Part shown: positions 1 to 11,614 of the stretch, one piece after another
Layout: each line of letters opens with the position of its first letter
Numbering within the stretch: position 1 is the stretch's first letter
Assembly: GCA_902528175.1 (NCBI GenBank)
Contig: CABZRN010000001.1
Span: forward strand, 1-64,000
Length of the DNA: 64,000 nucleotides
Reading direction: 5' to 3'
From: an uncultured Pelagibacteraceae bacterium
Lineage (GTDB): Bacteria > Pseudomonadota > Alphaproteobacteria > Pelagibacterales > Pelagibacteraceae
Notes under the pieces: model-generated
The model's database searches: none
The model's input: only the letters and a program-made list of their open reading frames with translations
Told to the model about the DNA's origin: nothing
Program-made: the position numbers and the translations under genes

Positions 1-2144
1 CAATAACAATAAGAGTGAGATCATCACTAAGATTTTTGTTATTTGCGTTAGCAGCGATTTCTTTGACGATAAGATTTAATTCATCATCAGGGTTTTTATT
101 AAAGTTTCTATTGATAACTTCTTTTGACCCTTCAATGCCAATCTCTTTATTATTTTTATTTAAACTTTCAGATAAACCATCTGTGAAAGCGTAAAATCTG
201 TTTCCATTTAATTTAGATTTATTAACAAAGTAACTAGATTTTGTGCCTTGTTTAATAACTCCTAAAGGAGGAGATTTGCTCTCAAATTCTTCAAAATTAC
301 CTTTGTTATCTCTAATAATAGCTGGTTGATGGCCCGCATTTACCCACGAAATTTCATCTGTAATAATATTATAATTTCCAATAATTGATGTAACAAACAT
401 TCCGCCAGTTTTAGTTAGATGTAAATCATTATTCATATGAAATGCCATTTCATCTACATCAACCTTATCACGAGACATAATCTCAAATAAAGTCGAGGCT
501 TTTGCCATGACCATACCTGCATGAATTCCTTTTCCAGCAACATCAGCAATAACAAAATAAACACTTTCTTTGTGAGGATAAAAACTAAAAAAATCACCCG
601 AGACTTCTCTTGCAGCTAAATTAATTCCGTGAACTGGATAATTATTTAAATTTCTTTTAGGTAAGAAATTTTCTTGTACTTTAACTGCAAGCTTAACTTC
701 TCCAGTTATTCTATCACGCCATTTTTTTTTCTCTATTTCGCTAGTTTCTAATTTGCTCATTAATTTATTATAATATAACCCTATGACACCTCCTGCAGTA
801 AAAGGGTCTTGTGGTCCTCTAATTGTTAAATCACCAGTCTCCGATTGTTTATCTAATATAGAAATTAAATCATGTTCTACTGATGTTGCGTTGTGTTCTG
901 CAATATTAAGACCTAATTCTTCTTGGATAGGACTTACTCGTAAAGGATAAAACGAATTTAAAATTTTTAATATTGTAAAAGATCCAATAAAGGCAAATAA
1001 ACCTATAGCTATAACACCTATAAACTGAACTTTAATTTGTTCTAGTCTACTTAGATCTGTCCCCAGAGTTTCTAAATTACTAAAAAAACCAACAGCTAGA
1101 GTGCCCCAAACACCTGCTGCAAGATGAACTGGGATTGCTCCTACAACATCATCGATTTCATATTTGTTTAATAATTCATTTACGAATATAGCTAATACAG
1201 CGCCAATCACTCCAACAAATATTGAAACTACAGATGTCATCGAATCACATCCTGCGGTAATTGCAACTAGTCCAGCTAGAGGACCAAGTATAATATAATA
1301 CGGGTCTGGTTTTTTAAATAGTAAAAAAGATATTCCTAAACCTGTAAGCAAACCAAAAGATGCGGATAAAAAAAGTGTTGATCAGAATAAGTGGAACAGC
1401 TTCATCCATTGCTCCGTTACTTCCACCATTAAATCCAAACCATCCAAACCAAAGAATTAAAGTACCAAGAACTGCTAAAGGAAAACTTGAACCTGTAAAT
1501 TTACCTTTGTTTGCCTTTGAGTATTTGCCAATTCTAGGCCCTAATATTATAACTGCGGAGAGCGCGATCCAACCTCCAACCGAGTGAACGATTGTACTCC
1601 CAGCAAAGTCTATGAATCCTATAGTACTCAACCAACCTGTAGTATTTATTTGACCAGTAATGTCTAGTAGTTGTCTCTCTGCTTCCATATTATTCAAAAA
1701 ACTTGATGACCAAGTCCAATGACCTACAATGGGATAAATTATTCCTGTCGCTAAAATAGTTATAATTATGTAACCGTTAAATTTCATACGCTCTGCGACA
1801 GCACCAGAAATAATTGTTGCAGCTGTAGCAACAAACATTGCTTGAAATACAAAGTATGTCATGTATTCGGCCACGTCAGTTTTAAAGAAAAACAAGTCTG
1901 TGCCAAATAGACCGTTAAAACTTTTGCCAAACATCAATCCGAAACCAAATATCCAAAAAATTACTACGGATACCCCGAAATCAGCTGCATTTTTTAATGC
2001 AACATTTATACTATTTTTATAACGGGATAGACCTGTTTCCATACACATGAAACCAGCTTGCATAATAAACACAAGTATAGCGCAGTTTATTACCCAAAGT
2101 GTATCTATAAAAGACTTTACTGACTCTAAATTAATAATCTCCAT
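1..2144 (-). CDS. amt: Ammonium transporter (Amt) fused to a C-terminal SpoIIE/PP2C-type phosphatase; frameshifted and cut by the left edge
   Basis: Inner-membrane ammonium channel with a cytoplasmic output domain. The tracked 276-residue ORF covers the N-terminal Amt half, including the pore-histidine segment FAGSTIVHSVGG. It then runs off frame at an A7 run (1368-1374). Dropping one base restores an open frame to the window edge. That frame gives the last Amt helices (second pore histidine in GAIPVHLAAG) and the usual Amt tail (ELGLNIAEH). About 60 linker residues follow, then a full PP2C-like domain with REVSGDFF, IADVAGKG, WVNAGHQP, FTDGLSES and SDDLTLIVI. About 714 residues are visible. 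The ORF track omits the distal part because its frame has no start in the window. By homology the phosphatase would act on a phosphoprotein, perhaps an anti-anti-sigma factor; no partner gene is present here. The slip may be a sequencing error, a real mutation or recoding. Confidence 0.85.
1368..1374 (-). other. Homopolymer A7 (U7 in the mRNA) at the amt frameshift
   Basis: Seven A on the plus strand read as seven T in the coding strand. With seven, the Amt frame continues NTFFIRIF and soon stops. With six, it reads NTFLSASFGLLTG and continues through the rest of Amt and the phosphatase. No other slip is needed to reach the window edge. Both flanking parts look conserved, so the gene is either intact with a base-call error, newly broken, or expressed through slippage. 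Confidence 0.8.
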
Positions 2145-2159
2145 GTCAAAATTTTATTA

Positions 2160-3029
2160 TTATTTAATATTTTTTACATCAAAAATATTCTGATTTGAGT
2201 TTCTATAATTTTCTAAATTTTCTCTTCTAGAAGTTAAAAAAACTAATAAAACGAATATAATAATTAGAAATAGTGGTATTAAAGTAATAACTGAAATTTT
2301 TTTATAAATTAAAAAAAGATATACAAATAAAAATAGTGTTGATCTAATTAAAACATTAATTTTAAAAACAGCCATTATCGCCAAAGAATGCACAATAAGG
2401 TTTTTAAAACTCATTTTAGACGGTCCAACATACCTCATACCTCTCTCTGAGGGTATCCCAATTTTAACTTTTGAAATTTTTGACAGAGCTCCTGAAAAAC
2501 TACTCCATGTAGCCTTTTCATTAGTCATAACTTTCACTACTTCTTTTGGAAGGCATGTAAAATTTCCAAATCTGACAGATTCTCCTGTGAATGTGAATGT
2601 AATTAATTTGTGTAAAAAATAACAAAATTTAAAAAAAAAACCTTCTGATCTTTTAATTCTTTCACAAACTATTGGTAAATCAGATTGTGCTTCTATTTGT
2701 TTTATTAAATCTTTTATTTCCTCAGGTCTATCTTCACCGTCTGAGTCCATGGGTATAATATAATCAAAATCATTGTTTTCTAAAATAAATTTTAAACCAG
2801 TTGCAATAGATCTAGCATGTCCAACGTTTTCTTTTAAATTTATAATTTTAATAGAGTTTATTTTTGAGTAATTAGGAAAATTGTCAGGTGCTTTTTCATT
2901 TGACCCGTCATTTACAACTACAATAGAGATAATTTTATCTATATCTGTAACTTGATGGTTAATATTTTCAAGAAGCTTAAGCAAAGATTGCCAATCGTTA
3001 TAAAGAGGTATTAGTACTTTAAATTTCAT
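2160..3029 (-). CDS. GT2-family glycosyltransferase (dolichol-phosphate-mannose-synthase-like) with C-terminal membrane helices
   Basis: Probably transfers a sugar from a nucleotide donor to a lipid carrier or glycan at the inner face of the membrane. The GT2 fold opens with KVLIPLYNDW. It continues with a VVVNDGS motif near residue 40, ENVGHARSIA near residue 70, and the metal-binding PMDSDGEDRP near residue 95. The last 70 residues hold two hydrophobic helices. The start overlaps the stop of the 42-residue ORF upstream as ATATGA. That ORF in turn overlaps the GT-C gene, so the three form a translationally coupled cassette. It ends 15 bases before the amt start on the same strand, so read-through into amt is possible. 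The exact sugar cannot be told. Confidence 0.85.
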   Translation of the reverse strand: MKFKVLIPLYNDWQSLLKLLENINHQVTDIDKIISIVVVNDGSNEKAPDNFPNYSKINSIKIINLKENVGHARSIATGLKFILENNDFDYIIPMDSDGEDRPEEIKDLIKQIEAQSDLPIVCERIKRSEGFFFKFCYFLHKLITFTFTGESVRFGNFTCLPKEVVKVMTNEKATWSSFSGALSKISKVKIGIPSERGMRYVGPSKMSFKNLIVHSLAIMAVFKINVLIRSTLFLFVYLFLIYKKISVITLIPLFLIIIFVLLVFLTSRRENLENYRNSNQNIFDVKNIK

Positions 3030-3154
3030 ATTGAATTAATTGAACTTAAAAATCTTATTAAGGATGCAAATATTCCATGTCCTGAAAATTCTATTACAGC
3101 AATTATAAAAATTATTAGTATTAGTTTTTTATTTTTTTCTAAAAATTCATTCAT
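3026..3154 (-). CDS. 42-residue single-pass membrane protein in a glycosyltransferase cassette (not in ORF track)
   Basis: The ATG lies in an ATGA overlap with the stop of the upstream GT-C gene. The TGA overlaps the ATG of the downstream GT2 gene in the same way. The product starts MNEFLEKNKK, followed by a hydrophobic helix of about 20 residues (LILIIFIIAVIEF) and a short polar tail. The double overlap is the main argument that it is real. I do not recognise a family. By position it could help anchor or assemble the two neighbouring glycosyltransferases, or be a small flippase-like subunit; that is inference. It falls below the track's length cut-off. Confidence 0.65.
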   Translation of the reverse strand: MNEFLEKNKKLILIIFIIAVIEFSGHGIFASLIRFLSSINSI

Positions 3155-4473
3155 CTGCTACCTAAACATATACTGTCAATACAAATATAAACATTATATG
3201 TATCTAACTTATTTTGATCAACCTCACCATCCCAAACTGGTCTAGTTTTTAAATGATAAGATAAATTTCCTGCATTCCACTCGTTTCCTAAAACTACATT
3301 TATTGGCTCTTTAAATTCGTTATTCCATCTCAGTTGAACTTTGTCTGCAATTTGTTTTCCTGGATAGTCAGTTCTTTTATCAGTTTCAGTAATTGAAATA
3401 TATGCATAAGTAATGGGAGATAAAAGAAATAAAATTAGAAATGATATTATAAAATTTTTGTAATCTTGTTTTAAAATATATTTTTGAAAAATATAAACAA
3501 ATAAGGTTCCAAAGAATAAATAAAAAGGCGTCATCCACATTGTTCTTATTTTTAAACCCAAAATCATAGATGTAAAAAGAATTAAAAAAATTGGTAAAAA
3601 ATTTATTGCTAATAAAAATAAAAGTTTTTTATCTCTTAAATTATATTTAATTTTAATTTTTTTTATGAGAAAATATAACATAACAAAAAATGGAACTAAT
3701 ATTCCAATTTGTTTAAATATAAATATTACCGGATAAGTAAGATGATTTAAAAAAGTTGAACTGTCTACACTAGATCTTGCCAATCCATAAGTTATTGTAA
3801 TAAAATCATTATTAAATAACCAAATAATATGCGGGATTAATAAAACTAAAAAAACTTCAACAGAAATTAAATAATTAATATGGAATTTTCTATCTTTCTT
3901 AAAAAATATTAAATAAATAAAAAGTATATCAATTGCTATTAGTAAATAAATAAATAGATATTTAGATAAAAAACCACCGACAGCAAATGTTCCAACAATA
4001 ATACAATCTTTTAATTTAGGTATTTTTTGATTAAACACTTTCCATGAATAATAGACTGTTAAAACCCAAAAAGGAATTTGACAAACGTTTACATTAAATT
4101 CCGGGGTTGTAAAATTATAGAAATAAATACCTTCTAATAATAAAACAGATATAAGTGCTAAAATTTCATTTTTTAAAATTTCTTTACTAAATTGAAAAAT
4201 TACAAAAAATGAAAAAATAATAAAAATCTGACTAAGTAAGTAATATGCCCAATCATTAGAACCAAAAATACTATAAAAAATTTCTACCATAAATGCGCTC
4301 ATCGGAGGATGTTTATTAAAACCCCAATCTAAATTACTGCCCCAGGCTAAAGCTTCAATTGTATCGAGTGGAAGATTATTATTTGTTAAAGATGGAATCA
4401 GTGTCCATAAAATTAAATGGATTGTCAAAAAAATGTAAAAAAAAATTTTTGTTTGCTTTTTATAAATCACCAT
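3151..4473 (-). CDS. Polytopic GT-C glycosyltransferase, ArnT/PMT (GT39/GT83)-like
   Basis: Integral inner-membrane enzyme expected to transfer a sugar from a polyprenyl-phosphate donor on the periplasmic side. It has 440 residues and about ten hydrophobic helices. A first periplasmic loop carries acidic residues (LPLDTIEALAWGSNLDWG), followed by NKHPPMSAF, the HPP signature of ArnT-like proteins near residue 55. A soluble tail of about 70 residues ends in CIDSICLGSR. It is the first gene of the cassette with the 42-residue protein and the GT2 enzyme, which would plausibly supply the lipid-linked sugar. The target (lipid A, glycan or protein) cannot be told from sequence. It is divergent from dksA with about 80 bases between them. 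Confidence 0.8.
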   Translation of the reverse strand: MVIYKKQTKIFFYIFLTIHLILWTLIPSLTNNNLPLDTIEALAWGSNLDWGFNKHPPMSAFMVEIFYSIFGSNDWAYYLLSQIFIIFSFFVIFQFSKEILKNEILALISVLLLEGIYFYNFTTPEFNVNVCQIPFWVLTVYYSWKVFNQKIPKLKDCIIVGTFAVGGFLSKYLFIYLLIAIDILFIYLIFFKKDRKFHINYLISVEVFLVLLIPHIIWLFNNDFITITYGLARSSVDSSTFLNHLTYPVIFIFKQIGILVPFFVMLYFLIKKIKIKYNLRDKKLLFLLAINFLPIFLILFTSMILGLKIRTMWMTPFYLFFGTLFVYIFQKYILKQDYKNFIISFLILFLLSPITYAYISITETDKRTDYPGKQIADKVQLRWNNEFKEPINVVLGNEWNAGNLSYHLKTRPVWDGEVDQNKLDTYNVYICIDSICLGSR

Positions 4474-10820: not shown

Positions 10821-11614
10821 TTTCAATCTTAATAAATAATTACAATAATAAGTTTTATATAAAAAAATGTATTCAAAGTTGCTTGGTACAATCATACGAA
10901 AATTTAGAAATAGTTATATATGATGACAATTCTAACGATGGTTCTAAAAAAATAATAGAAAAAATCAAAGATAAGAGGATAAAAAAAATATTTAATAAAA
11001 AAAAATTATATAAAACTGGGGCTTTAAACCAATTAGAAGGTATTTACAAATCTATTAAAAAATCAAAAGGTGAAATAATTTTTTTACTTGATGGTGATGA
11101 TTTTTTTTTAAAAAAAAAAATTAGTTGTATTACAAATTTATTTAATAAAGATAAGAATTTAAATTTTATACAAGATAGTCCCTATTATTTTTTTCCTGAT
11201 CAAAATGTCAAAATTAAAAAAAAATTAAGACATAAATTTTTTACGATACATACATGGCCATATTTTTTCCCAACAAGCACAATGTCATTTAAAAGAAAGT
11301 TTCTTGTTAAAATTCTTAAAGAAATAAGTTTTTCAAAAAGGAAATATCCAAGAATGTTTTTTGATGCTAGAGCATTTATTTATATGTATTTTTTTGAAAA
11401 TAATATTCTAAGAACGGATGCATATCTAACTATGTATAACCAAAATATCAAAGGTGATACTATTAGAAATTATAGTCGAAAAAATTTAGACTGGTGGAAA
11501 AGACGATATGAATATCACATGTTTGTTAATTTACTTTTTAAGAAAAAAGATAAATTACATTTCAAATTTTTGGATTATTATGTGACAGTTTTAATAAATA
11601 CCTTATTCAAATAA
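10799..11614 (+). CDS. GT2-family glycosyltransferase
   Basis: 271 residues with a GT-A fold. It begins VSILINNYNN, then IVIYDDNSNDGS near residue 42 and the metal-binding IIFLLDGDDFF (DGDD) near residue 97. The C-terminal half is rich in aromatic residues and lysine with no membrane helix. It overlaps the epimerase gene by 22 bases and the convergent dihydroorotase gene by 12. Poly-A and poly-T runs are extreme even for this genome. It probably builds a surface glycan together with the epimerase; donor and acceptor are unknown. Confidence 0.8.
   Translation: MVQKNILVSILINNYNNKFYIKKCIQSCLVQSYENLEIVIYDDNSNDGSKKIIEKIKDKRIKKIFNKKKLYKTGALNQLEGIYKSIKKSKGEIIFLLDGDDFFLKKKISCITNLFNKDKNLNFIQDSPYYFFPDQNVKIKKKLRHKFFTIHTWPYFFPTSTMSFKRKFLVKILKEISFSKRKYPRMFFDARAFIYMYFFENNILRTDAYLTMYNQNIKGDTIRNYSRKNLDWWKRRYEYHMFVNLLFKKKDKLHFKFLDYYVTVLINTLFK

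Follow-up and report, generated by a model that had tools for sequence, protein, structure and literature searches.

A candidate ammonium-receptor phosphatase of SAR11 bacteria and its linkage to a putative partner switch among type IV pilus genes

The stretch of DNA analysed here (the window, 64,000 nucleotides from a 763 kb SAR11 assembly that is 62% complete) opens with two overlapping minus-strand reading frames, at 1314-2144 and 2-1372, which are offset by one base and correspond to the two halves of an Amt-linker-SpoIIE protein. They raise the question of whether an Amt domain and a serine phosphatase truly form one protein in these bacteria and, if so, what such a protein might sense and on what it might act. 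The features of the gene are as follows.

1314..2144, minus strand: N-terminal part of the Amt domain (first frame), with the start codon at 2144; PF00909 positions 2-228, E=4.4e-68
884..1372, minus strand: C-terminal part of the Amt domain (second frame); PF00909 positions 228-397
1368..1374, minus strand: run of A (T on the gene strand), one base longer than in relatives, breaking the frame
734..895, minus strand: HAMP-like linker with the DPFTxxGxIxxxYN motif, about residues 417-470 of the related fusion L004
665..739, minus strand: helix leading on to the phosphatase (approximately L004 residues 469-493), as predicted by AlphaFold2 secondary structure
2..568, minus strand: SpoIIE/PP2C phosphatase domain (PF07228), cut at the contig end

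The Amt portion in the first frame is 94% identical to residues 1-269 of L004, and the second frame supplies the C-terminal Amt part, the linker and the SpoIIE domain, which scores E=4.5e-34 against PF07228 there. The window has seven A at 1368-1374; in a junction alignment, the run is one base shorter in eight close relatives (83-95% nucleotide identity to the window) and the frame continues through it, so that only this assembly, or this cell, has the break. Base 1 of the window is also base 1 of its contig (C1), the phosphatase runs off the contig, and this copy lacks the stop and the final two residues that L004 has. Two genes immediately upstream of the fusion and on its strand (2160-4473) by eye resemble a glycosyltransferase and a membrane glycosyltransferase.

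The first-pass annotation had joined Amt and SpoIIE/PP2C into a single frame by restoring one base, and the relatives bear this out: all 80 loci fetched from named Pelagibacteraceae genomes encode the fusion as one open frame of 705-720 aa. An order-wide search of an even sample found it in 71 of 347 Pelagibacterales genomes, the window's own counted, and it is intact in nearly all of the roughly 70 others, with in-frame stops in one and a contig-end cut in another. The bearers, some of them closed genomes in a single contig, belong to two genera of the family, the window's own and a second one. When 399 genomes from across the phylum were sampled, matches outside SAR11 never reached into the phosphatase, and a plasmid search gave no match covering 80% of the query. 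Thus confirmed, the Amt-phosphatase fusion is genuine and common to many SAR11 ocean bacteria. Searches of the open-licence literature found no published description of it, and that searchable literature describes no phosphatase output for Amt receptors. About 25 of the 80 loci carry a second Amt-SpoIIE fusion in tandem (745 aa, about 55% identical to the first; for example at 7800-10037 of L018, and likewise in L019, L021, L029 and others), and a small gene (about 110-120 aa) separates the two.

What the Amt part does is best approached through its nearest relatives. It matches PF00909 with E=5.9e-111, and the structures 8qj3/8qpf (E~1e-115) and 6eu6 (E~1e-83) resemble it far more than E. coli AmtB does (E~1e-26); Foldseek names these nearest structures as the receptor Sd-Amt1 in its ON and OFF states and the sensor Amt protein Ks-Amt5. 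In Ks-Amt5, residues Q24, E31, N47, D50, T51, T109 and T112 are the ligands of two ammonium ions (PMC5764959). At these positions the fusion has Q29, E36, N52, D55, F56, T110 and S113, the same set as Sd-Amt1: five of seven are identical to Ks-Amt5, T112 is conservatively replaced by S, and the T51 position holds an F, which Sd-Amt1 has too. Among SAR11 Amts that are not fused, those examined, including the one encoded separately in the window's own genome, show A, E, N, L, S and S at the ion-site places. Two proteobacterial Amts without a fusion partner (G246 and G321) have the receptor set as well, so the ion-site pattern is supportive of a receptor, not diagnostic of one.

The first-pass annotation had envisaged a transceptor that reports ammonium flux; on such a reading the Amt part would still transport ammonium efficiently. 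That annotation had rightly recorded both pore histidines (H187, H340), which are invariant in a 42-row alignment together with W145 and F104, and the retention of the Phe gate, W145, D179 and the twin histidines does speak for transport. The same pore residues are present in Ks-Amt5, however, which is reported not to translocate efficiently (PMC5764959), and receptors are the closest relatives of the fusion's Amt part, in a genome that has a separate unfused Amt. We therefore consider a flux reporter unlikely. The idea of a phosphatase that reports on ammonium is retained, and a receptor is the more likely form of it, judging from the grouping with Sd-Amt1 and Ks-Amt5, the possession of most receptor ion-site residues, the separate Amt and the linker that follows.

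This linker, about 50 residues long with the motif DPFTxxGxIxxxYN, recurs in Sd-Amt1 and in the Amt-PAS-GGDEF(-EAL) proteins found in other proteobacteria, and is absent from unfused Amts. It looks like a HAMP unit, with a HAMP match that is weak and sub-threshold (E=0.079, in a homologue) and a full-length AlphaFold2 model with two helices at 421-436 and 447-465, which is of low confidence (pLDDT 33-55 in the linker) and whose geometry we do not build on. The phosphatase matches PF07228 with E=1.6e-35 to 2.7e-33, and its fold is nearest to RssB, Rv1364c and SpoIIE by Foldseek. The metal motifs, which the first reading had already called complete, are SGDF, DVAGKG, TDG and DD and are invariant in the 42 aligned sequences; a degenerate phosphatase was rejected on account of these conserved metal-binding residues. 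In RsbU-type phosphatases, N-terminal sensors order crossing linker helices, upon which the catalytic domains dimerise and become active, and these enzymes exchange their N-terminal sensor domains with kinases and GGDEF proteins in a shared logic (PMC12143880). A PP2C domain taking the place of a GGDEF output on the same sensor and linker would fit that logic.

As to partners of the fusion, the window's genome is a poor guide. No STAS, HATPase_c_2 or PilB was found in it, which agrees with the earlier remark that no STAS or anti-sigma partner lies nearby, and this absence follows from the 62% completeness and the contig end; relatives show it to be an artefact of the assembly. The contig that carries the fusion in G016 (98% identity across the second frame) has, about 20 kb further downstream, two STAS genes along with an RsbW-like one. 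In the clade to which the window belongs, 20-25 kb separate the pair from the fusion, which sits near recA/tolC; 53 of the 80 loci have the HATPase much closer, 1.6-2.1 kb away, with pilin genes in the interval. The STAS protein (99 aa; PF01740) resembles RsbV (6m36_B), and the HATPase (143 aa; PF13581) resembles RsbW (6m36_A). An MDSSG motif occurs in 56 of 56 STAS sequences and an N-box in 53 of 53 HATPases, both motifs being part of the search patterns; G2 is present in 53 of 53 HATPases and G1 in 52. Some genomes have tandem STAS genes ahead of the HATPase (94 and 99 aa, at 10821-11102 and 11102-11398 of L171), and the second of these may be an output protein. The target had been left open in the first-pass annotation, and that no longer holds: relatives have, beside the fusion and among type IV pilus genes, a STAS/HATPase pair that looks cognate, and we infer that this pair is a strong candidate target of the phosphatase.

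A trio of STAS, HATPase and SpoIIE proteins matches RsbV/RsbW/RsbU, and one could imagine a classical anti-sigma partner switch in which the HATPase holds RpoH or RpoD and the fusion leads to release of the sigma factor. We think this improbable. A search of the genus for sigma-70 region 2 returned RpoD- and RpoH-sized proteins, and no factor tracking the switch; an extra short sigma-70 region 2 protein of 175 aa (G018:C4:10051-10230) occurs in that genome only. Moreover, the Hmp switch of Nostoc is reported to act via its STAS protein instead of a sigma factor (PMC6495340). Since no dedicated sigma factor co-occurs, and by analogy with the Nostoc proposal, a sigma-independent output is favoured over a dedicated anti-sigma circuit.

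The setting of the pair suggests what that output may be. The HATPase gene abuts pilC in 72 of 81 HATPase loci. The pilus cluster encodes PilB, PilC, a secretin, PilM/PilN, PilT, pilins and a prepilin peptidase, and in many cases has two more SpoIIE sensors, GAF-SpoIIE and CHASE2-SpoIIE, along with a FecR-domain protein. These further SpoIIE phosphatases with GAF and CHASE2 sensor domains (for example at 4883-6163 of L172 and 4396-6450 of L171), of which the CHASE2 one adjoins the FecR-domain protein, are probably extra inputs to the same switch. The PilB of L171 (13095-14840) has an MshEN domain. In some other bacteria MshEN binds c-di-GMP. An autotransporter-domain protein lies beside the pilus cluster at 2030-4390 of L171; a 2025 study of SAR11 described a coastal autotransporter adhesin that always adjoins T4P/T2SS genes (PMC12636525).

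Co-occurrence points in the same direction. We used a PilB protein query as the pilus marker, because PF04350 (PilO) is too divergent and matched only 3 of 61 genomes. Among 40 near-complete genomes (each at least 94% complete), the RsbW-like HATPase whose search the first reading had called for is present in 20 of 20 fusion bearers (p=6e-6), and HATPase and pilB occur together in 25, HATPase only in 2, pilB only in none and neither in 13 (p=9e-9), although both p-values ignore relatedness and thereby overstate the evidence, related genomes not being independent. That fusion, HATPase and pilB are found on one contig within 9 kb in G473, a member of the second genus, helps against this problem. 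In 37 genomes of the window's genus, both HATPase and pilB are present in 14, pilB only in 2 and neither in 21, and in both exceptions the pilB match lies beside a contig break. Seven of the 27 HATPase-bearing near-complete genomes are without the fusion, which makes it one optional input.

It might still be that the fusion acts on some unrelated phosphoprotein and is linked to the pilus switch by coincidence, as the position near recA/tolC, at least 20 kb from the pair, in the window's clade and the fusions lying away from the cluster in some genomes (G464) would allow. The adjacency in 53 of 80 loci, the 20 of 20 co-occurrence, the retention in a second genus and the tandem paralogue beside the switch weigh against this, and we regard it as a slim chance, less probable than either alternative above. 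That the two frames of the window's assembly reflect two separate genes or an assembly chimera is next to impossible given 80 of 80 loci in one frame from independent single-cell and metagenome assemblies, with closed genomes besides, and the separate-genes reading was rejected, as no relative had Amt and phosphatase as separate genes.

Starting from what is directly established (the fusion architecture, the conserved catalytic and ion-site residues, the linker homology, the gene linkage and the co-occurrence), we propose, with a probability of roughly 0.6, that the fusion is an ammonium receptor phosphatase whose action on the STAS protein toggles a pilus-linked partner switch. In the gene product, a receptor-type Amt trimer would be followed by a HAMP-like transmitter and then by a serine phosphatase of the SpoIIE/PP2C type. 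As in Ks-Amt5 and Sd-Amt1, ammonium from outside would enter the Amt vestibule and occupy a binding site within the membrane, and the resulting change would pass via paired HAMP-like linkers and let the PP2C domains meet in an active dimer. The active phosphatase would then dephosphorylate a serine of the RsbV-like STAS protein (99 aa), which would sequester the RsbW-like HATPase kinase (143 aa) or itself be the output. GAF-SpoIIE and CHASE2-SpoIIE would probably feed the same switch, and the output would most likely be pilus expression, assembly or activity. In this scheme we infer the control by ammonium and the sign of the response, the substrate and the output, that is, pilus control, for which we draw on gene linkage alone, co-location being no proof. 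The fuller proposal, that the type IV pilus of SAR11 is under the direct control of a multi-input, sigma-independent partner switch for which the Amt-HAMP-like-PP2C receptor phosphatase reads external ammonium, is more tentative and in our estimate falls somewhat short of even odds.

SAR11 bacteria are known for small genomes and little regulation. If the proposal is true, some of the ocean's most abundant bacteria would possess a dedicated circuit from nutrient to surface behaviour, and ammonium may steer the surface filaments of very simple cells. Amt receptors, whose earlier outputs were kinase and cyclase, would also gain a protein-phosphatase output, and the fusion together with the switch offers a concrete entry point to SAR11 pilus function.

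Among known systems, the Shewanella denitrificans protein Sd-Amt1 (PDB 8qj3/8qj4/8qpf) is, like the fusion, a receptor-type Amt, with 46% identity in the Foldseek alignment. Its ion-site residues are identical to those of the fusion and its linker is homologous. The output is where they differ: that of Sd-Amt1 was reportedly a diguanylate cyclase in the 2024 paper on it, and the fusion has a SpoIIE/PP2C phosphatase instead. In Kuenenia stuttgartiensis, Ks-Amt5 (PDB 6eu6, PMC5764959) is likewise an Amt sensor with a fused signalling output, but this output is a histidine kinase, and the residues that block its pore, Y30 and F34, are replaced in the fusion by M and L, as T51 is by F. The RsbU/RsbV/RsbW and SpoIIE/SpoIIAA/SpoIIAB switches share with the SAR11 set a PP2C phosphatase, a STAS protein with DSSG and a HATPase with N-box and G2, whereas the SAR11 set has an Amt sensor, a pair placed within pilus genes and no dedicated sigma factor that we could find. 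HmpU-W of Nostoc punctiforme, from an unrelated lineage and with no Amt sensor described in that account, is a partner switch implicated there in the development of hormogonia, the stage motile by type IV pili, and its STAS protein, as may hold for SAR11, is proposed to be the output (PMC6495340).
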